Below, in pieces: positions 16,055 to 30,306 of a DNA stretch of 54,421 nucleotides. Source of the stretch: Cyanobacteria bacterium K_Offshore_surface_m2_239 (GTDB taxonomy: Bacteria > Cyanobacteriota > Cyanobacteriia > PCC-6307 > Cyanobiaceae); NCBI GenBank assembly GCA_016882305.1, contig VGQX01000004.1, positions 1-54,421 on the forward strand, written 5' to 3'. Numbering within the stretch: position 1 is the stretch's first letter; every line of letters begins with the position of its first letter. The position numbers were made by a program, and so were the translations under genes. Below the pieces are notes generated by a model that was not told the origin of the DNA, made no database searches, and was given only the letters and a program-made list of their open reading frames with translations.

Positions 16055-17680
16055 ATGCGCTTGAACGCTCTCAGCGCCGCAGCTTGCCGGAGTTTTCATC
16101 CCGATTGGTTTCTCCCGAGCCTGACCCCCACACCGATTCCGGGCGATGTCCGCAACCGGCGGGGCTGCCGGCTCAGCCCTCTGGTCCCGGTGCTGGCCGC
16201 GCTCGCCATCGCGCAGCCCCTGCTGCCGCTGGCACCCGCCAAGGCTCTGGAGGAGGTGGTTGTGCAGCTCCCGTTGGTGGACACGGGACTGACCATCAAG
16301 GTGAACGAGTTGCGCAGCCTGGAGGCGCTCCGCGCTGGCAACAGCGATTTGGCCGAACTGGATCGGGCCAGCGATGGAGCCATTGGCCGGCAGGTTTGGG
16401 AGGTGCTCAACCAACCGGTTCCCCTCCGTCTCACCCGCATCGTGGATGGCTCGGTGGGGTCGCCCTTGCTGGATCAAGCCATTCTCGTGCTCTCCACCAT
16501 CGGCAAGGTGGAGGGTCGCCCGCCGGATCTCACCGGGGCAACGCTGCGGGAGGCCCTGGACAAGGCCTCGGCGACGGGTGATCTCACCCTTTTGAACCTG
16601 ATCAAGGCCATCCCCGGCCAACGCCTCACCCTGAATCTGACCCGAGCCAAGGACATCGCCAACCGAATGCTGGAGCAGCGCGATGAGGCTGTGGAGCTGC
16701 TGGCGCGTCTGCCGCAGGTGGTGCCTCCGTCAACGCCGCTGAGCCCGGGTGGTGCGGTGATCACGCGCACGGTGCGGATTGCCGTGGCCCATCGCAAGCA
16801 ACCTCTGGAGCTGGTGGTGATGGAACCCCAAGCGACGGGCAATGGACATCTGGTGCTGATCTCCCATGGCCTCTGGGACGATCCGAAGAGCTTTGCGGGG
16901 TGGGGCCGTCTGCTGGCCAGTCGCGGATACACCGTCATCCTGCCTCGCCATCCTGGAAGCGACAGCACCCAGCAGGAAGCTGTGTTGGCCGGTGAGGCGC
17001 CCCCACCCACGGCGGATGAGCTTGCCTTGCGCCCCTTGGATGTCAAAGCGGCGATCGACCAGGTGAACGGACTGGGCTTGACCACCAAGGTGGACAACCA
17101 GCGCGTTGTCGTGTTGGGTCACTCCTGGGGTGGCACAACGGTGCTGCAACTGGCGGGAGCACGGCCGACCGAGGCCAACTTGCGCAGGAGCTGCAACGAC
17201 GTCCGCTCCCCTGATCGCAACCTGAGCTGGACGCTGCAATGCAGCTGGGTCAGCGGCGTGAACCGGGCGTCGATCCACGATTCGCGGGTGATCGCGGTGG
17301 CTGCGGTGAGTCCACCAGCCTCCCTTCTGTTTCCGCGGGGATCCGGAGCGGATCTCAATGCGCGCGTGCTGCTGGTGAGCGGCAGTCGCGATTGGGTGGT
17401 GCCGCCGGATCCGGAGGCCATTGATCCCGTTCGCACCGCCGCGCGAGCGGGCCATCAACTGGTGCTGGTCAACGGCGGCGATCATTTCAATCTCAGACCG
17501 GAGGCGCAGGCGGATGGAGGTGTGCTCGGAGCGATGCTGTTGAAGTGGGCAGATGCCGCCTTCTCAGCCGGCGAGGGAGCCCGACCCCGGGAAGGCGCGG
17601 CTCCCCTGCTCACGGGTGGGGGCTGGGGACATGCTGACTTCCCGATGGTGGACGCCACGCGGGCGGTCCAGAACCCGTAA
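16055..17680 (+). CDS. secreted alpha/beta hydrolase with N-terminal DUF1400
   Basis: LEEVVVQLPLVDTGLTIKVNELRSLEAL (DUF1400-like) and VVLGHSWGGTT nucleophile elbow; GDHFNL near C-terminus. Confidence 0.88.
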   Translation: MRLNALSAAACRSFHPDWFLPSLTPTPIPGDVRNRRGCRLSPLVPVLAALAIAQPLLPLAPAKALEEVVVQLPLVDTGLTIKVNELRSLEALRAGNSDLAELDRASDGAIGRQVWEVLNQPVPLRLTRIVDGSVGSPLLDQAILVLSTIGKVEGRPPDLTGATLREALDKASATGDLTLLNLIKAIPGQRLTLNLTRAKDIANRMLEQRDEAVELLARLPQVVPPSTPLSPGGAVITRTVRIAVAHRKQPLELVVMEPQATGNGHLVLISHGLWDDPKSFAGWGRLLASRGYTVILPRHPGSDSTQQEAVLAGEAPPPTADELALRPLDVKAAIDQVNGLGLTTKVDNQRVVVLGHSWGGTTVLQLAGARPTEANLRRSCNDVRSPDRNLSWTLQCSWVSGVNRASIHDSRVIAVAAVSPPASLLFPRGSGADLNARVLLVSGSRDWVVPPDPEAIDPVRTAARAGHQLVLVNGGDHFNLRPEAQADGGVLGAMLLKWADAAFSAGEGARPREGAAPLLTGGGWGHADFPMVDATRAVQNP

Positions 17681-17737
17681 GGCTCAAGCGAGGGGCGAAA
17701 CTGGCGGCGCCGCGCTCCACGGGCGGCGCCGTGCTTC

Positions 17738-19288
17738 TCAACCGCGAGGGAGGCGGCAGCGCCGACGCAGTTTGCGGCTGAACGTCCAGGCCATGGCGGC
17801 GCCGCTCACCGCCAGGGGGCCTGGCACGGGCTCTCCTGCGAGCGGTGGCGTGCTCAGCGGGGAGAGCCGCGCCAGGGAGGCCTGTTCAAAGTCGTAGGCG
17901 TAGCCGAGGAGCTTCTCTTCCTCATAGGCTTTGGCCAGGAAGGACAGGCCCAGAGGATTTTTGTTGTTCAAGGTTTGATATCCCGCCGGCACAATGATCG
18001 TGGGATAGCCCGCCCTGGCACCAATGGCGGCGCCGCTGGCGCCACTGAAAAGAATGGCATCCAAACTGTTGGCCGCCATGAAGGCGTCGATGCCAAGGGT
18101 GCGGGAGTTGAGAATGTCAGCGGCTCGATCGGCCTGATAGCGGATGGTGTCAGCGCTTCCAGGGGTGAGATCGATCAAGCGAGAGGTGTCAATTCTCACC
18201 TTGCCGTATTTGAAGGGGCCGGCTGGATCGGGATTGGCGGCATTATAATCGATAATGAAGGTATTGACATCATCGATATCTTGAATGTTGGCGGCAGGTC
18301 CCAGGCTGGCCAGATAGGCATTCAGATCGCGTTTGAATTCATAGGGCAACACCGTGCTGCTGTTGGTGGGTGGTGTGAAGGGAATCTTCAGAACGGTGGC
18401 GCCTTCCGCGCGCAACACATCCAGAGCCTGGTTGAAGATGGCCAACTGTTCAGAACCGCTGGCCGTGGAGCCATTGGGCTCGGCGTAGTAGCCAAGTCTG
18501 GCGCCTTGCAGAGCATCAAGCCTCAAATAGGGCGTGTAATCGCTTTTCGCTTTGCCAACGCTCTCGGCGGTTTGCGGGTCTTTGGGATCCTCTCCTGTCA
18601 GGGCGCCGAGCAGGATGGCGGCATCGGTGACGGACCGAGCCATCGGGCCGGCGGTGTCCTGGCTGGCGGCGATGGGGATGATGCCATCGCGGCTCCAGAG
18701 GCCAACGGTAGGTTTGATGCCCACCAAGGAATTCTGATTGGCGGGGCTGAGGATGGATCCGGAGGTTTCCGTGCCGATGGCGATGGTGGCGAAGTTCGCC
18801 GCCATCGCTGCCCCTGACCCCGCGCTGGACCCTCCCGGAGAAAGCAGGGGGCGCCCATCCCCGCCCGGCAGCGCCACCGGGTTGTAGGGATTGAACGTGT
18901 AGCCATTGAGCGAGCTGTACCCCGCTGGCATGCCAGAGGTGAGATAGTTCGCGAATTCAGTCAGGGATGTTTTGCCGAGAATGATCGCACCGGCATCCAG
19001 CAACTTCAGAGCGATGGTGGCGTTGTCGGGCGGCAGGGAGCCCGCCAGGCCGAGGAAACCCGCTGTCGTGGGCAGAAAGCTGGTGTCGATGTTGTCTTTC
19101 AACAGAACAGGAATGCCGTGCAGCGCAGACCGTGGTCCTGTGGTGCCGCGCTCCAGGTCGAGGGCGGCCGCCTGGGCGACGGCATTGGGATTGAGGGAGA
19201 TGATGGTGTTGAGATTCAAGCCCCCCGGCCCGTCATAGGCGGCGATCCGGTTGAGATAGAGCTGCACGAGCTGCGCCGAGGTCAACAC
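17738..19288 (-). CDS. amidase-signature family protein with C-terminal PEP-CTERM-like sorting motif (annotated start is probably not the native one)
   Basis: HGIPVLLKDNIDT, GGSSAGSGAAMAANFATIAIGTETSGSILSPA (Ser-cisSer-Lys triad); C-term VPGPLAVSGAAMAWTFSRKLRRR; in-frame codons FSLEQATIPSINAAFDAG lie upstream of the GTG at 19288. Confidence 0.88.
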   Translation of the reverse strand: MLTSAQLVQLYLNRIAAYDGPGGLNLNTIISLNPNAVAQAAALDLERGTTGPRSALHGIPVLLKDNIDTSFLPTTAGFLGLAGSLPPDNATIALKLLDAGAIILGKTSLTEFANYLTSGMPAGYSSLNGYTFNPYNPVALPGGDGRPLLSPGGSSAGSGAAMAANFATIAIGTETSGSILSPANQNSLVGIKPTVGLWSRDGIIPIAASQDTAGPMARSVTDAAILLGALTGEDPKDPQTAESVGKAKSDYTPYLRLDALQGARLGYYAEPNGSTASGSEQLAIFNQALDVLRAEGATVLKIPFTPPTNSSTVLPYEFKRDLNAYLASLGPAANIQDIDDVNTFIIDYNAANPDPAGPFKYGKVRIDTSRLIDLTPGSADTIRYQADRAADILNSRTLGIDAFMAANSLDAILFSGASGAAIGARAGYPTIIVPAGYQTLNNKNPLGLSFLAKAYEEEKLLGYAYDFEQASLARLSPLSTPPLAGEPVPGPLAVSGAAMAWTFSRKLRRRCRLPRG

Positions 19289-19295
19289 TCCGGCG

Positions 19296-19628
19296 TCAAA
19301 CGCGGCGTTGATGCTCGGAATCGTGGCCTGCTCCAGGGAAAACGGCGCGGCCTGGGGCCAGCGGCGCCACCAGAGAGCAGCCCAGACCGAGGACCAGCGC
19401 GGCCAGGCGCGCTTTGTGCTCCGCCAGGGGCTTCCAGGTCCGCGCCCGCTCTCGGCCTGGAAGGGCTGCTTGCCCCTGCCCGCGGCTTGGGCGGAAGGCC
19501 GACGCCTCCGCCGTGGAGAGGCGCCCCTGCCACACCTGCGGTGATGGCGTTGCAGTCTTGGCTGGCCCTGGACAGAGGGTGTCGCTGTAGCTGTAGCTAT
19601 CGCTATAGCTGTGGTTGTTGTTTGACAT
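19296..19628 (-). pseudogene. candidate frameshifted 5' part of the amidase gene (Ser-rich leader plus signal peptide)
   Basis: ORF encodes MSNNNHSYSDSYSYSD...EHKARLAALVLGLGCSLVAPLAPGRA, a signal-peptide-like segment ending where the amidase frame resumes (APFSLEQATIPSINAAFD) in another frame. Confidence 0.5.
19581..19610. repeat. 6-bp tandem microsatellite (gtcgct gtagct gtagct atcgct atagct)
   Basis: five consecutive hexamers, reads SYSDSYSYSD on the minus strand. Confidence 0.8.
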
Positions 19629-20154
19629 TGTGTATTGGCGTAAATACTTTTATTTTATGACGAGAAATCCCTCGTGTAGGCAGTATCTTATTTGACATTT
19701 TGAGGCCTTATCAGCTGCCGCACACCATCGCTTTCCGCGAGCCCCCTCGTCCCCTGGCTCGGACGACCCTCTCACGGCTGGCCAGCGGGATGACACACGC
19801 GCCATCGTGAGAAGAAACCGCATGGAACCCTTGGCGCCTGCCGCCGACATCAAGCCGATGGTGCTGAGCGGAGGAGATGCGTTTCGGGACGTCCAACAAG
19901 CCCCGGCCAAATCCGCTCCGTGAGCCACGAAGGCTTGTCAAACCATCACGATGTCAATGAAGAAAGTCTTAAGCGATCGACGGTTACCCATGGGCATGGC
20001 TACCATAACTATATCTATTGGGATGGTGATGGCAACAACCGTGGAAATCTTGCTCACGGGGGCAGTCCTCCCCGAGCGTGAACGGGTGGCAGGCGCTGGA
20101 CAAAGACGAAAGCCTGGCACTCATCACCGACATCGACGCCCCGGGGATCTCGGG

Positions 20155-20841
20155 TTGAAGGTCGCCTCCGCGGTTTGCCGTCTCAGTTGCTTGGGGCTGG
20201 CCATCCTTGCGGCGGCTGTCCCGTCTCACGCAACTGCGGTGAATCTCGACTTCAGCTTCTCTCCCGCTTTGTCGCAAAATGAGCCCATTCCCCAATCCTA
20301 CGGAGACATCCCAGGTCAGATTGACCTTGTTTATTCCTCTGTAAGCGCTCCTGGTTCATCCACACCGTGCTTTGATCCACAATTGCGATTCTGGGACGTA
20401 GAATATAGTAATCTCCTGGATGTCGCCTATGCCTGTAATGGTGGTACAGGCCAGATCAAGCTGTTGCCCCTTCCCGGGTATCAAGTCACTCTCCAGGGGT
20501 TTGACCTCGGGGCTTGGCCTCGTGTTGATCGGTCATCACAGGTGACGGTTTTCGCCGCCGATCTCTCGACCGTTGTTGTCCTGGATCCGCCGCCGCTGAC
20601 GATTTCTGGGACGCTGGCCAAGCAGTATTCGTTTGCGGGCCCCCAGTTCACGCGTCTGGATGGCTTCGCCATTCAATACGGACCCGATGGTTTCAACGTA
20701 GGCATCGATAACTTGAGGTTTGTCGTTTCCCCTGTGCCGGCGCCCCTGCCTCTCTTGGGGGTGGCGGGACTGTTTGCTGGCAGCCGCAACCTCCGCAGAC
20801 GTGTCAAAGCGGTCCAGAGCATCAAGGCCGGCGGGACCTGA
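20155..20841 (+). CDS. small secreted protein with PEP-CTERM-like C-terminus
   Basis: TTG start gives signal peptide MKVASAVCRLSCLGLAILAAAVPSHATA; C-term VPAPLPLLGVAGLFAGSRNLRRRVKA. Confidence 0.7.
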   Translation: MKVASAVCRLSCLGLAILAAAVPSHATAVNLDFSFSPALSQNEPIPQSYGDIPGQIDLVYSSVSAPGSSTPCFDPQLRFWDVEYSNLLDVAYACNGGTGQIKLLPLPGYQVTLQGFDLGAWPRVDRSSQVTVFAADLSTVVVLDPPPLTISGTLAKQYSFAGPQFTRLDGFAIQYGPDGFNVGIDNLRFVVSPVPAPLPLLGVAGLFAGSRNLRRRVKAVQSIKAGGT

Positions 20842-20882
20842 GGGCCCCCCTTGCTGTCAGGAAGACGTCCAGCCTCCCATGC

Positions 20883-21167
20883 TCATCGCGGGCTTGGCGG
20901 GCGAGCTGGCGGCTGCCATTGCGGCGAGCAAGGCTCCCAGCCCTCCCGCCGCAGATGGAGCCAGAGGGCCAGAGCGTCATCCCGGCAAAGCTCCTGCCGA
21001 TGTTTGAGCAGCGGGGAGGACTGATCGTCAATCCATTCTCCGCTGGTGACCTCCAAGGACTGGCGCCAGCGGTCCCACCGGGCGGGCTGGAAGTGCAACA
21101 CCCTGGGCCCCGCACGGAGCCAGGCCTCTCTGGGGGAGGGGGGGCGGCCTTCGCCAGCAGGCGTCAT
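20883..21167 (-). CDS. DUF1651-like small protein
   Basis: RAGPRVLHFQPARWDRWRQSLEVTSGEWIDDQSSPLLKHRQELCRDDALALWLHLRREGWEPCSPQW resembles the picocyanobacterial DUF1651 family. Confidence 0.7.
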   Translation of the reverse strand: MTPAGEGRPPSPREAWLRAGPRVLHFQPARWDRWRQSLEVTSGEWIDDQSSPLLKHRQELCRDDALALWLHLRREGWEPCSPQWQPPARPPSPR

Positions 21168-21187
21168 GGTCGGTCGGCCTTGCCCGT

Positions 21188-21472
21188 TCAGGCCACCTCC
21201 GGTGCCCAGCCGCGTTGCCGCAGAAGGTCTTCCGTCCAGCTCGGACACCGGTGGGTGATGTGTTCCCCGTGGGCAATCAGTCCCTGGCGCAGCTGGCAGG
21301 TCAGCAGCGGCACGCAGTTGGGACCGGCATGGTGGCGAAACCAGTGGCAGGTGAGGCAGACCTTGTGACTGCGGCTGGTCCGCAGCACCGTCTGGTCGAG
21401 ATAGGGCCACTCCTCGATCGGTTCGAGGGGGCTGGCTCCAGGAGCGGCTGCACGGGAGGAGGGGGCGGCCAT
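21188..21472 (-). CDS. small Cys/His-rich conserved hypothetical protein
   Basis: 94 aa; KVCLTCHWFRHHAGPNCVPLLTCQLRQGLIAHGEHITHRCPSWTEDLLRQRGWAPEVA. Confidence 0.6.
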   Translation of the reverse strand: MAAPSSRAAAPGASPLEPIEEWPYLDQTVLRTSRSHKVCLTCHWFRHHAGPNCVPLLTCQLRQGLIAHGEHITHRCPSWTEDLLRQRGWAPEVA

Positions 21473-21593
21473 GGACGTTGAGTGGTCGTACGGCTGTACT
21501 AGCACGCTGGAGATGGTTTGGCGCGCCCGCGTGCCGGGAGGCGGAGCGGCGGCCTCAGGGCCGGCCGCCATCCGTCGAGTCAAGGCCCGCTCC

Positions 21594-24227
21594 TCAGGCC
21601 AGGGCCGGCACCGCCTCGCTGAGAGGGGCTGTCGCGTCGGCGGTTTGGAAGCGCAGGCGCTCGTTCCGCACGTCCACCGCGATCGCCAGGCCGGGGGCGA
21701 AGGTGCCCGCCAAGATCGCCTTGGCGATGGGCGTTTCCAGCTCCCGCTGGATGGCGCGCTTCAGCGGACGGGCCCCGTACACGGGGTCGTAACCGACGCC
21801 GGCCAACCAGTCGAGGGCTTCGCCATCGAGCCGCAGCCCCAGCTTCTTCTCCTCCAGCCGCTTCGCCAACCGCTTCACCTGCAGCTCCACGATCTCGCGC
21901 AGCTCCTCCGCCTTCAGGCTGTGGAAGATGATCGATTCATCCAGACGGTTGAGAAATTCCGGGCGGAAGTGGGCCCGCAGAGCTTCGTTCACCCGCTTCT
22001 CCATCTCCGCGTGGCGGGCGGGATCGCCGGCCAGATCGAGGATGGATGCGCTGCCGATGTTGCTCGTCAGGATCAACACCGTGTTGGTGAAATCCACCGT
22101 GCGGCCCTGGCCGTCGGTCACGCGACCATCATCCAGGATCTGCAGCATCACGTTGAACACATCGGGGTGAGCTTTCTCCACCTCGTCAAAGAGGATCACC
22201 GCATAGGGCCGACGCCGCACCGCTTCGGTGAGCTGGCCTCCCTCCTCGTAGCCGACATAGCCCGGAGGCGCCCCGATCAGACGGCTGACGGCGTGTTTCT
22301 CCATGTATTCGCTCATGTCGATGCGCACCATCGCCTCCTCGGAATCAAAGAGCTGCGCCGCCAGCGCCTTGCTGAGCTCCGTTTTGCCCACACCCGTGGG
22401 GCCGAGGAACAGGAAGCTGGCGATGGGGCGGTTGGGATCGCTCAGGCCTGCCCGGGAGCGCTGGATGGCATCCGCCACGGCGGTGACGGCCTGCTGCTGG
22501 CCAATGACGCGTTGATGCAATTCCTCCTCCAGGTGCAGCAGTTTTTCCATTTCGCTCTGCACGAGCTTGCTCACCGGAATGCCGGTCCACTTGGCGATCA
22601 CCTCGGCGATGTCATCCTCGGTGACCTCTTCCCGCAGCAGGGTCTTGCCGCCCTGACCGCTGTTGAGCTCCGCCTCTTTGGCCGCCAGCTTGCGGTTGAG
22701 CTCGCCCAGGGTGCCGTATTCCAGCTCAGCGGCCTTGTTGAGGTCGTAACTCCGCTTGGCCTGCTCGATCTGCAGCTGCACCTGTTCGATCTCCTCCTTG
22801 ATGGCGCCCAACTCATCGATGGCGCCCCTCTCCTTCTGCCATTGGGCGTTGAGAGCGCTTTGCTGTTCGCCCAGTTCAGCGAGCTCCTTCTCCAGGCGTT
22901 CCAGCCGGTCCCTGCTGGCCACATCCGATTCGCGACCCAGGGAGAGCTTTTCCATCTCCAGCTGCAGGATGCGTCGATCCAGCTCGTCGATCTCCTCGGG
23001 TTTCGAGGTGATCTCCATCTTCAGCCGCGCGGCGGCTTCATCCATCAGGTCGATGGCCTTGTCCGGCAGGAAGCGATCGGCGATGTAGCGGCTGGAGAGC
23101 ACAGCGGAGGCGACGATCGCGTTGTCAGCGATGCGCACGCCATGGTGCACTTCATAGCGCTCCTTCAACCCCCGCAGGATGGAGATGGTGTCCTCCACAG
23201 TGGGCTGATCGACAAAGACCTGCTGGAAGCGCCGCTCCAGGGCAGGGTCCTTTTCGATGTGTTGACGGTGTTCGTCGAGGGTGGTGGCGCCGATGCAGCG
23301 CAGTTCACCGCGAGCCAGCATCGGCTTGAGGAGGTTGCTGGCATCCATGGCGCCACCGGTGGCGCCCGCGCCCACCACGGTGTGGATCTCGTCGATGAAC
23401 AGCACGATCTGCCCCTCGGAGGCGGTCACCTCCTTCAGGACGGCCTTGAGACGCTCCTCAAATTCGCCGCGATACTTGGCACCCGCGATCAAGGCGCCCA
23501 TGTCGAGGGCGATCAGCTGGCGGTTCTGCAGCGCCTGAGGCACGTCGCCGTTGACGATCCGTTGGGCCAGCCCCTCCACGATGGCTGTCTTGCCCACCCC
23601 GGGCTCGCCGATCAGCACCGGGTTGTTCTTGGTGCGGCGGCTGAGAATCTGAATGGTGCGGCGGATCTCCTCATCCCGGCCGATCACGGGATCCAATTTC
23701 CCATCCCGGGCGGCGGCGGTGAGATCGCGCCCGTATTTCTCCAAGGATTCGTAGGTGCCCTCAGGATTTTGATCCGTCACCTTCTGGTTGCCGCGCACGT
23801 CGACGACAGCTTGCTTCAGCGTGTCGGCGGTGCCGCCGCACTGGCTGAGGAGTTGCCGGCCGCAGCGATCATCGCTGGCCAAAGCCAGCAACAGATGCTC
23901 AATCGAGATGTAGCTGTCCCCGAAACCAGCCTTCAGAGAATCAGCCTGATCCAACACATTGTTGAGGCTCTTGCCGAGATAGATGTTGTCCGGCGCGGCG
24001 CTCAAGCTCGGCTGGCTGGCGATGAACGCCTCGATCTTCGGGCTCAGGCTGCCAAGATCCACACCCGCCTTGTCCAGGATCCGGCTGGCCAGGCCCTCCT
24101 GGGCGAGCAGGGCAGCGAAAAGATGTTCGCTTTCCATCTGCTGTTGCCGTTTTTGCTGCGCCAATTGCTGAGCGGCAACGACAGCGGCCCAGGCCTTCTC
24201 CGTGAACAGTTCGGCGGTGGGATGCAT
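21594..24227 (-). CDS. clpB: ATP-dependent chaperone ClpB
   Basis: [13 protein letters not shown]; two AAA modules ([33 protein letters not shown]), coiled-coil middle domain. Confidence 0.97.
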
Positions 24228-24324
24228 GGTGTGAAGCCTCCTGGATCTCAAACGCGAAGATGGTTCATCTGTGAGCCTATGCAGCTGTCGCGAACAGATC
24301 GAGCGTGAGGACCGAACACAACCG

Positions 24325-25638
24325 TCACCGCGCTCGTTCGGAGGTGGGGAGAACCGAAAGGGAAGCGCAGGCCATCCGCCTTCGCAGACGCCGGCTCCAG
24401 GCCACCAGGCTCGCTACCCCAACGATCGGCAGGGGAGCGGGCACTTTCACCGATGCAATGAAGCTGGCGTTGAGAGCGACAGGTACGTGACCGCTGATCT
24501 CACCAAAGGTCGCGTTGCTGATGTTGTCAATGTCACCATAAGAGGTGCCTAAGGATGTGGCATAGCTGACGATGGTGGCAATCTGGTCGCCGATGAAGCC
24601 AGGACTTCCGGAGTCCGAACGGGCGACGGTGGCCTCTTTGGTGCCCGTGCCAAGATTGCAGTAGATGGGATTGCCCGCAAGGGAAGGATTGATAAACGTG
24701 CTCAGTCTGCAAGATACGTCATTAGCCGCCAATCCGCTGTCAAAATCGCTGATCCATGTGTTCAAGCCATCAGCGAACAATGGATCGGATAGAAATTCTC
24801 CGTTGAAATTTGGATCTTTCCATTGAAAGTCATACCGATTGCTCCCCTGACGCAAACGGCCGATCACCCCATTGGCGCCAACAGATCCTCCGGAATTGGA
24901 GGTTAATCCATAACCAGATAAATCAAATGTCGAGGATCTCGGATTTTGGAGGTAAAGTTCATAAGATCTGGCGAAAGAGGGTGCTGGTCCGGAAAGCCTG
25001 AGCACCGCCAGGTCGTTATCCTCAATCGGCTTGCCTGAGTAGCCGGGAGCGATAAAGAAATTTGAAATACTGACGCCTGTAGCCGCAGAGCTGCTGTGAA
25101 CAATCGTATCTGGCTGGTAGGGCGGCGACATGCTGCCATCGTAGAAGAAAGCCGTCGCAGATGTGGCATTGAGGTTGCCAAGGCCGTCGCTGACGCAATG
25201 AGCGGCGGTTAAAATCGAACGACGATCATTGAGTAAAGAGCCAGTGCAGATAAAGGTATTGGAGGCACCTTTTGAAATCAGAAGGCTGGCCACGCCTGAA
25301 AACCTGGGCATGGTGGGCAGGTAGATCGCATTGCCGCCTGACGCCACGGGAGCATTCGAGGTGGTTCCCACCAGGAGGCTGTTCACCGTCCAGGGAATTC
25401 CATGGGTGACACCAGAGATCAACCGATCGCTCGGCTCGGCCACCGTGGCCCCCACAACATCTTGCGCCTTGACCTGGCTGGTCAACGCGGAGACGGAGAC
25501 GGTCAACCCAAGAAAGCTGGCCACCCAAAACAATGGCTTCGCGGAGCCAGGGCAGACAGAAGAGAAAGATGAGACAGAGGAGTCGGAGGAGTCAGAGGAG
25601 TCGGGGAGGCTAGAAAAGCCACAAATGTTGTTCATCAT
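24325..25638 (-). CDS. trypsin-like serine protease with signal peptide and PEP-CTERM-like C-terminus
   Basis: TAAHC (His), [10 protein letters not shown] (Asp), [10 protein letters not shown] (Ser); signal [27 protein letters not shown]-term [23 protein letters not shown]. Confidence 0.82.
25540..25612 (-). repeat. 9-bp tandem microsatellite encoding [15 protein letters not shown] at protease N-terminus
   Basis: minus strand gactcctct/gactcctcc/gactcctct/gtctcatct/ttctcttct. Confidence 0.75.
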
Positions 25639-25849
25639 CTTTGATTTCTTTGAATCCCCTCTTTCTATGGTATCTTCTCTGAGCGTGGTTTCTTTTGTTT
25701 GCAATCTGTGATTTGCACCCCGATATTCAGGCCATTCCCGTCTCACCGCGATCTCCTTTGGCTTCTGCCTGCCCCTCCAGGCTTGCTGGCGTCGCCTGGA
25801 CGGCGGTGCAAGATGACCTTGGACGCTCCTTCACCTTGTTGAGTGTCGT

Positions 25850-26220: not shown

Positions 26221-28311
26221 GTGTCGCTTCGCCTCTTCTCTCCCCCTGTGCTCTCGCCGTTTCCGGCGCCCCTGCGCTGGGGGTCCGCCCTCTTGATCAC
26301 AGCCCTGGGCAGTCGCTATCTGGTCTGGCGCCTGACCAGCACACTCAACGTCCATTCCCCACTCTCGACGGCGTTGAGCGTGCTCCTGCTGGCGGCGGAG
26401 CTTCTGCTCCTGAGCCATGGTTTTCTCCAGGTGTGGCTCAGTTGCCTCGGCGGGAGCGACGGCAGCGCAGCGATCGCCGCCGCGACGGCGCGCTTGGAGG
26501 TTGATCGGAGGCGCGCTCCCCAACGTCTGCTCTCGGTGGCTGTGCTGGTGCCCAGCCGCGGCGAACCGGCGGCGGTGATCGAGCGCTGCTTGCGGGGCTG
26601 CCTGGCGATCGACTACCCCCGTCATCAGGTGTGGTTGTTGGACGACAGTGACCGCGAGGAGCTGCGCCGGCTCTGTACCCACCTGGGGTGCGGCTATCTG
26701 GCCCGCACGGAGAACCGCCATGCCAAGGCGGGCAACCTCAACCACGGCTTGGCTCGGGTCCACGCCGACCTGATCGCGGTCTTCGACGCCGATGTCGTTC
26801 CACTCAGCGATTTCCTGCGTCGCACGGTGGGCCTCTTCGCCGATCCTTCCGTGGGCTTTGTGCAGACGCCCCAGACCTACATGAACGCCGATCCGCTGAT
26901 GCGCAACTTGCGGCTGGAGCGCTGGCTGCTGGCCGATGAGGAATCCTTTTACCGCTGGATCGAACCCACGCGCCAACGCCTCGGTGCCGTGGTTTGCGCG
27001 GGCACCTCCTTTGTCATGCGTCGTCAGGCCCTGCTGGCGGTGGGGGGATTCGAGACCGGCACCACCTCAGAGGACCTGGCCACGGGCTTGCGCCTTGTGG
27101 CCGCGGGTCTGCGGGGGGTGTACGTGCCGGAAAAACTGAGTGCGGGTCTGGCGCCGCTGACGATTGGAGCCATGGTGACCCAGCGCTGTCGCTGGGCCAG
27201 CGGCACCCTGCAGATCCTGCGCACGGGGGCCAACCCGCTCACCATCGCCGGCTTGAACCCCTTGCAGCGCCTGGCGTATCTGGAGGGCATCGCCCACTGG
27301 CTGCTGGTGTTTCCCCTCCTGGTATTGGCGGTGGCCCCTCTCACGCTCGGCCTGGAGGACCTGGCGCCCTTGCGGGTGCGCCCAGAGGCGCTGCTGACGG
27401 TCGCTCTCCCCTTTCAGCTCAGCCAGCTCCTGCTGATCCGTTGGCTCAGTGGGCAATCCCGCAGCGCCCTGATGCCGGAGCTCTACCGCTGGGTGTTGGC
27501 CTGGCCCCTGGCGGTCACCGTGGTCGGCACGTGTCTGGGGCGCCCCCAGCCCTTTCGCGTCACCCCGAAGGCTCCGGCCGCTCGCCCGGGGGAGGCCCCC
27601 AACGCTCGCCTCCTGGCGCCGCTCTTGGCCCTGCTCGCCGTGCAGGGCGTCGCCTTGGTCCGATTGATTCTGCTTCTGCTGAACGATTGGTCGGGGAGGC
27701 TCCCCCTGACGGATGGACGGGGAACGCTGGTGGTGCTGGGCCTCACTTGGTCGCTGCTCAACGGGCTATTGCTCCTGGCGGCGAGCCGAGCCTGTTGGGA
27801 TCGTCCCCGAGAGGATGGGGTGCCTTGGTTGGCGCCTGCCTTGGGGGGCTGGGGGCTCACTGCGGCGGGGGTGAGGCCGTTGGTGGTGAGCGCGATCAGT
27901 GAGCGGGGCTGTGAGGTGCGGCTGAGTCTGGAGTCCTGCTCGGACGGGGGGGGGGCGGGAAGCTGGGCGGAGCCGGCCAGGGTGTGTTTGGATCATCCGC
28001 TGCTCTGCCAGGACCTTTGGCCCGTGCGGTGCGAATGTAGGGCGCCACTCGGGCGAAGGCCAGGCGGGAGCTGGGCCTTGGGGCGCAGAGCTGAGGTGAG
28101 GGAAACCGGCGTGTGGCTGGGATTGCGTTGGGACGCTCTCACTCCCGATCAGGTGGACCGCCTGCAGACCTACCTGTATCGACGGCCAGGGCTTTGGCCG
28201 ACCCTGCCAGCCCCCTGGGATCCCCTGGCACTGGCGGTGATGGGGCGTCGCTTGCTGCAAAGGATCCCGCCGGAGAGCTGGTTTTCGCGCAGCGTCATGC
28301 CCATCCGCTGA
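26221..28311 (+). CDS. cellulose-synthase-like family 2 glycosyltransferase
   Basis: multi-TM; VLVPSRGE, WLLDDSDR, VFDADVVP, TSEDLATGLRL, QRCRWASGTLQI (D,D,D,QxxRW). Confidence 0.9.
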   Translation: MSLRLFSPPVLSPFPAPLRWGSALLITALGSRYLVWRLTSTLNVHSPLSTALSVLLLAAELLLLSHGFLQVWLSCLGGSDGSAAIAAATARLEVDRRRAPQRLLSVAVLVPSRGEPAAVIERCLRGCLAIDYPRHQVWLLDDSDREELRRLCTHLGCGYLARTENRHAKAGNLNHGLARVHADLIAVFDADVVPLSDFLRRTVGLFADPSVGFVQTPQTYMNADPLMRNLRLERWLLADEESFYRWIEPTRQRLGAVVCAGTSFVMRRQALLAVGGFETGTTSEDLATGLRLVAAGLRGVYVPEKLSAGLAPLTIGAMVTQRCRWASGTLQILRTGANPLTIAGLNPLQRLAYLEGIAHWLLVFPLLVLAVAPLTLGLEDLAPLRVRPEALLTVALPFQLSQLLLIRWLSGQSRSALMPELYRWVLAWPLAVTVVGTCLGRPQPFRVTPKAPAARPGEAPNARLLAPLLALLAVQGVALVRLILLLLNDWSGRLPLTDGRGTLVVLGLTWSLLNGLLLLAASRACWDRPREDGVPWLAPALGGWGLTAAGVRPLVVSAISERGCEVRLSLESCSDGGGAGSWAEPARVCLDHPLLCQDLWPVRCECRAPLGRRPGGSWALGRRAEVRETGVWLGLRWDALTPDQVDRLQTYLYRRPGLWPTLPAPWDPLALAVMGRRLLQRIPPESWFSRSVMPIR

Positions 28312-29014: not shown

Positions 29015-29317
29015 ATGCCTAAACGTCGAATCCATCCGCCTGAGTTCAAGGCCCAAGTTGTGCTGGATGCCCTCGGTAGCAAAAAGACATTGTCTGAACT
29101 TGCTGCTAGCCATGAACTGCATCCAGTCCAGGTATGCCAATGGAAACAACATGCCTTGAAGCATTTGCCAGATCTGTTTCGACATCCAGATCGTGAGGAT
29201 CAAGATCGCTCCGCTGATTCCTTAAGCAAGCGGTTGGCCAGATTGGAGCCAGCCAATTCAGAATTGATGAATGAGATTCAATGGCTCAAAAAAAATTCTA
29301 CAATTACGATCAGCTGA
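29015..29317 (+). CDS. IS3 family orfA (HTH) protein
   Basis: MPKRRIHPPEFKAQVVLDALGSKKTLSELAASHELHPVQVCQWKQHALKHLPDLF. Confidence 0.85.
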   Translation: MPKRRIHPPEFKAQVVLDALGSKKTLSELAASHELHPVQVCQWKQHALKHLPDLFRHPDREDQDRSADSLSKRLARLEPANSELMNEIQWLKKNSTITIS

Positions 29318-30306
29318 CCTTGCGCTCACTCCTGGAGCCAGATCATCCATGTATCTCGTTACGACAACAATGTAAATTGATCGGTGTCAACAGATCAAGT
29401 TATTATTATCGACCCGCTGCTATCTATTGCAAATCACCTCAGCTTGCCCACCTGATCGATCGGTTCTGTGCACTGGATCCACGAATCAGTTGTCGTCATC
29501 TCTTGTCGCAACTAAATGCCCATGGCTTTGCTCTGTGTAAAACAACTCTTCATCGTCTCCTCTGCCGGTTGGGATTTGCGCCTTTTGAGCGAAAATTAAC
29601 CAGGTTGTTGGAAGCCCGACTTCTGCAAATGCCGCCCCTTCCCGTGCAAGGGGAGGGATTTGAACAACATGGTGAGCAGTGGATTCTTGATTTTGCGTAC
29701 TGGCCCTCCTCCCAAGGGGATTTTTTTGCTTCTCTGCTGGTGGACGCTGGCTCGCGCAATTGTTTGGCCTGGGGTCTTTCCGATCGTCTCTCGCCAGATC
29801 TGGTGACCCGGGTGTTGTGGGGGGCCATGGAGACCCACCCCTTGCCCCTCCTGCTTCGCTGTGAAACGGTTCTGCCCTATGTCAGTTCGCGTTGCTTGCG
29901 AGACCTGTTGCGGGCCGGCATCAGTGTTGTGGGACCCTTGTGGTTGGGATCACTGCAGGGTTCCGGTCGGTCCACTGTGTTGTCTCCCATTTGGACAGGA
30001 TTGAAGCAAGCTGCTGAATTTCTGCGTTCCGCACACGGCCCACGCAGTGAGGCCTCGATTCTTGATCAGGTGATCCGGGAGGGAAATGAACGGATGGCCA
30101 GAGATCGTGATTCGGATGAGGGAAGTTCTTCCCTCGGCTTGGAGCCCGTCAGGCTGCCAGCTGCCAGGACCCTTTGGGCGGGGTTTAACGATGCTCGTCC
30201 GATCCTGCCGGAGGTTGAGGACCAATCAAAAAGTTTTTTGACTCACACCATCCCCTTCCCCACCCGCCGAAGGACGGATCCGAACCAGCGGCAATCCATG
30301 GGTTGA
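29281..30306 (+). CDS. IS3 family orfB-like protein with degenerate integrase core
   Basis: LLEPDHPCISLRQQCKLIGVNRSSYYYRP and ALCKTTLHRLLCRLG are orfB-like; WILDFAYWPSSQGDFFASLLVDAGSRNCLAWGLSD resembles the rve start, but the second Asp and final Glu are not recognisable. Confidence 0.7.
   Translation: MAQKKFYNYDQLTLRSLLEPDHPCISLRQQCKLIGVNRSSYYYRPAAIYCKSPQLAHLIDRFCALDPRISCRHLLSQLNAHGFALCKTTLHRLLCRLGFAPFERKLTRLLEARLLQMPPLPVQGEGFEQHGEQWILDFAYWPSSQGDFFASLLVDAGSRNCLAWGLSDRLSPDLVTRVLWGAMETHPLPLLLRCETVLPYVSSRCLRDLLRAGISVVGPLWLGSLQGSGRSTVLSPIWTGLKQAAEFLRSAHGPRSEASILDQVIREGNERMARDRDSDEGSSSLGLEPVRLPAARTLWAGFNDARPILPEVEDQSKSFLTHTIPFPTRRRTDPNQRQSMG

Follow-up and report, generated by a model that had tools for sequence, protein, structure and literature searches.

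A probable Cyanobium-lineage PEP-CTERM sorting tail on three neighbouring proteins, and on about 50 across a draft genome with no exosortase assembled

Three neighbouring proteins encoded in a 54,421-nucleotide stretch of DNA from Cyanobacteria bacterium K_Offshore_surface_m2_239 (“the window”) carry one common C-terminal tail, which is very likely a PEP-CTERM sorting signal of the Cyanobium lineage. It would be read by that lineage's own exosortase, whose gene probably escaped assembly here and would lie right past the first position of contig C1. We hold to this reading, and place the enzyme in an assembly gap, because tail and exosortase co-occur, because the genus has an exosortase, and because the gene order on C1 points to such a gap. 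The direct basis comprises the tags with their number and position, heuristic signal peptides, co-occurrence with exosortase and, in relatives, the catalytic triad and the exopolysaccharide neighbourhood of the enzyme.

Tails in the window and across the genome

The pattern VP[AG]PL-x3-G-x7-SR-x-LRRR was found on three proteins within positions 17738-25746, each time 6-16 residues before the stop (Table 1). A six-frame search of the window for the strict form (VP.PL...G.......SR.LRRR) yielded 3 occurrences, always 6-16 codons before a stop, while 150 first-order Markov shuffles of the window contained the strict pattern 0 times and a looser pattern 0.07 times per shuffle. The tails are located as the initial annotation had described them, but the strings it gave as C-termini contain the motif without being the exact protein ends, since the motif core is followed by CRLPRG in the amidase, by VKAVQSIKAGGT in the small protein and by 16 residues in the protease. 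The signal peptide which that annotation had assigned to the small protein was predicted here too.

Table 1 Tagged proteins, their tails and associated features in the window.
Feature	Position	Strand	Remarks
Amidase-signature enzyme, tagged C-terminally	17738-19288	-	PF01425 245 bits; NF005300 above cut-off; in-frame part of gene
Amidase tail VPGPLAVSGAAMAWTFSRKLRRR	17759-17827	-	6 residues before stop
Signal-peptide-like stretch ARLAALVLGLGCSLVAPLAPGRA	19344-19412	-	Upstream of amidase, in another minus-strand frame
Small secreted protein, no family match	19951-20841	+	Predicted signal peptide
Small protein tail VPAPLPLLGVAGLFAGSRNLRRR	20734-20802	+	12 residues before stop
clpB	21594-24251	-	Between small protein and protease
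Trypsin-like secreted protease	24325-25746	-	PF00089 51.6 bits; LTAAHC, NDLAVL and SDSGSP motifs read in sequence
Protease tail (23 protein letters, not shown)	24376-24444	-	16 residues before stop

Across the whole assembly, a 3.5-Mb, 343-contig, 95.6% complete draft, a profile built from the three tails identified 52 places at E<1e-3, the window's three included. DNA was taken for most of these places, 34 were extracted as C-terminal, and the distance from tail to stop, measured for 33, had a median of 7 residues. A simple and admittedly crude heuristic, with proteins cut by contig ends being missed, recognized a signal-peptide-like N-terminus on 23 of the 34 tagged proteins. The consensus of the 33-row alignment (VPGPLP-x-LGA-xx-A-xxx-SR-x-LRRR) combines a Pro motif, a hydrophobic stretch of only ~12 residues and a basic cluster near the C-terminus, with G or A as the middle residue of the Pro motif in nearly all 33 rows, i.e., without the Pro-Glu-Pro triplet.

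The initial annotation had proposed a genome-wide search for the motif and a check against curated CTERM models. The first returned about 50 copies rather than an absence, and the motif is also abundant in relatives. The second gave a divided answer. Pfam and NCBIfam scans of the three whole window proteins found no CTERM domain, and none of their tails passed a curated CTERM model (one at 14.1 bits, short of the cut-off of 16; the other two without match). Elsewhere in the genome, TIGR04155 (cyano_PEP) matched 10 of the 33 tails at E<=10, with one seen over the cut-off (23.6 vs 21.6 bits), and one tail passed TIGR02595 (16.1 vs 16), while most genome tails scored under the curated cut-offs.

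The same annotation had also suggested a dedicated, co-sorted functional module for the three neighbours. Their tags do lie inside ~7 kb, and two or three tags also stand close together at C22, C68, C188, and C6. However, the three genes sit on mixed strands and are not an operon, clpB intervenes between two of them, they are 3 of ~50 tagged genes scattered through the genome, and a DNA search of the genus with 17600-21400 gave alignments to five relatives that covered the amidase and left out the small protein. A dedicated module is thus very improbable, and the three neighbours do not stand out within the ~50-protein set.

Co-occurrence with a lineage exosortase

Among 250 genomes of the order, the tail was present in 38 and an exosortase in 48. 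Specifically, PF09721 was found in 37 of the 38 tail genomes, the sole exception being the present one, versus 11 of the 212 tail-less genomes (Fisher p ~1e-33, kinship ignored). At the genus level, 39 of 42 genomes encode a TIGR04178 protein over cut-off, and the three genomes without exosortase are all fragmented drafts, i.e., this one and two others of ~250 and ~280 contigs. Named genomes with matches include isolates of Cyanobium sp. and of Synechococcus sp.; Cyanobium sp. Aljojuca 7A6 is one isolate that carries the exosortase gene. A class-wide search of 291 genomes detected the tail at E<=1e-7 in 3, each belonging to this genus. Overall, nearly all sampled members of the genus Cyanobium have both tag and exosortase, as do some other genera of the family. 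Since the tag is widespread in the genus yet mostly scores below curated models, the surface proteome of common freshwater picocyanobacteria is probably under-annotated. Our literature search found no paper treating exosortase together with Cyanobium. Separately, a contig labelled Thiodictyon (L165) encodes a Cyanobium-like exosortase along with a protein bearing the same tail; it is probably a mis-binned cyanobacterial contig.

This distribution bears on whether the tail could be a generic C-terminal membrane anchor served by no dedicated processing enzyme. A hydrophobic stretch followed by arginines would suit such an anchor, but fixed prolines and SRxLRRR on unrelated proteins exceed an anchor's needs, the hydrophobic part is short at ~12 residues, and the tail is both narrowly distributed (3 of the 291 class genomes) and tracks exosortase. 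We consider a generic anchor very unlikely.

The relatives' enzyme belongs to the exosortase family, as it exceeds the PF09721/TIGR04178 cut-offs and carries the Cys/Arg/His triad (C-x-G, N-x-x-R, [FW]-x-H). In a tree of HMM-picked exosortases, the main Cyanobium enzymes formed one well supported group, with 13/13 rows from tail genomes. Some tail-bearing relatives carry exosortases outside this clade, so that tag and enzyme do not pair strictly one to one. Of the NCBIfam models, cyanoexosortase A (CrtA, TIGR03763) matched the tested exosortases best, over nearly its full length; this makes it the closest known type, yet scores of 105-132 bits for five relatives' enzymes fall under the 150-bit cut-off and leave them outside cyanoexosortase A proper. 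The exosortase of relatives adjoins exopolysaccharide genes, encoding a WcaI-like glycosyltransferase, a WcaF-like acetyltransferase, a Wzc-like kinase, and a Wza-like export protein, and such neighbours are expected for PEP-CTERM systems (PMC1569441).

Compared to known systems, the tails share with PEP-CTERM and its cyanobacterial subclass (TIGR02595, PF07589, TIGR04155) a short Pro motif, a hydrophobic stretch and a basic end near the C-terminus, along with signal peptides, many copies per genome and a tie to exopolysaccharide (PMC1569441), but read P[GA]P where those tags have PEP, and their SRxLRRR is strict. Nostoc punctiforme has dozens of PEP-CTERM proteins and, in an exopolysaccharide locus, cyanoexosortase B (CrtB), whose deletion alters the extracellular abundance of these proteins (PMC12188702). 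The relatives' exosortase likewise lies in an exopolysaccharide locus but is distant from CrtB (~38-44 bits vs a cut-off of 300). The same three-part tag logic is seen in MYXO-CTERM and GlyGly-CTERM, which are paired with myxosortase and rhombosortase, intramembrane proteases that differ from exosortase, rhombosortase being a rhomboid protease (PMC11980579, PMC3237569); the tails here have neither the invariant Cys nor the GlyGly motif.

The PEP-CTERM/exosortase assignment of the initial annotation is thus strengthened by the ~50 copies, the borderline TIGR04155 and TIGR02595 matches, the order-wide co-occurrence with exosortase, and tailed amidase orthologues in three relatives. Under this assignment, tagged proteins would be exported by Sec through their N-terminal signal peptide and held in the inner membrane by the short hydrophobic stretch, arginines inside. 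The lineage's membrane exosortase, whose closest known type is cyanoexosortase A, would then cut near VPxP through its Cys, and the cut protein may be handed over to the outer surface or to exopolysaccharide. In the present organism, the exosortase gene would lie in sequence missing from the assembly, probably right past the C1 start.

The exosortase gap in the assembly

The initial annotation had seen no exosortase in the window, and this extends to the whole assembly, although 39 of 42 genus genomes have one: at E<=10, neither PF09721 nor TIGR03763 nor an 11-row profile made from the exosortases of relatives gave a hit, and TIGR04178 gave none at E<=0.001. A DNA search of the genome with 11 kb of the exosortase locus recovered a gene flanking that locus and a remote Wzc paralogue, and nothing else. 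A second Wzc/Wza-like pair, on contig C32 at 11-16.5 kb (L119/L120), adjoins a tagged protein with the tail VPGPAPILGVAGALGIARKLRHRI; as a candidate exosortase locus this pair was rejected, being 42-49% identical and with no exosortase beside it.

In many genus genomes, the exosortase is located ~8-9 kb from the gene for a ~213-residue protein. Here, that gene lies at C1:53.6-54.1 kb and is followed by genes for an M23 peptidase and PspA, which in relatives are on other contigs or far from the ~213-residue protein gene. The exosortase locus is thus absent from its usual site on C1, where the sequence is contiguous, the surroundings of the junction being free of Ns, and the chromosome is rearranged. 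The junction segment (C1:54,100-54,420) had no match among the other sequences compared, and the contig may be chimeric at this point. In the complete relative G038, an ABC-transporter-type gene follows the M23 gene, and the counterpart of this stretch in the present genome is found at C1:1.8-5.5 kb, near the contig start, with the ABC-transporter gene at C1:1836-2600. C1 itself begins inside a group II intron (1-1850, with reverse transcriptase and maturase domains), where the assembly breaks. From this gene order, the exosortase locus is probably located just beyond C1:1, through an inversion joining both ends, and the missing exosortase is probably a gap in a fragmented draft assembly.

Alternatively, the exosortase may truly have been lost, with the exopolysaccharide locus deleted in the C1 rearrangement and the tags acting as plain membrane anchors or being cut by another membrane protease. 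The empty searches, a usual site that is contiguous without the locus, and the lack of any close copy of the neighbouring locus in the searched assembly would all fit such a loss. Yet the tags remain numerous and well conserved, the gene is kept in 39 of the 42 genus genomes with the other two exceptions also being fragmented drafts, gene order sets the locus beside a contig end where a group II intron interrupts the assembly, and completeness stands at 95.6% over 343 contigs. Loss by this route therefore appears unlikely. It is a little more doubtful still that the lineage lost its exosortase and keeps ~50 tagged proteins whose tag was taken over by another membrane protease or works uncut.

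Tagged proteins of the window and their surroundings

No start codon was found upstream of 19288 for the amidase frame. In all five relatives whose orthologue was read, a signal-peptide-like stretch shares the frame of the domain, and three of these orthologues show the tail (L169, L171, and L173); the frames of L170 and L172 break off before the gene end and are therefore uninformative on the tail. Since signal peptide and domain share one frame in these orthologues but differ in frame in the window, the window amidase probably carries a frameshift, which may be genuine or an error in the sequence. Translation of the small protein probably starts downstream of 19951. For the protease, a plasmid collection held only distant matches (29.5% identity).

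A family 2 glycosyltransferase with a weak cellulose synthase match (26221-28311) adjoins the tagged protease, and a link to exopolysaccharide is possible. Further along, a transposase-type helix-turn-helix protein (29015-29317, PF01527) is followed by a frame without Pfam match (29281-30306). Finally, the segment 20906-21400 has many matches in most genus genomes, several per genome at ~66-82% identity, and also matches two further places in its own genome (C186 and C85), representing either repeated DNA or a gene family.
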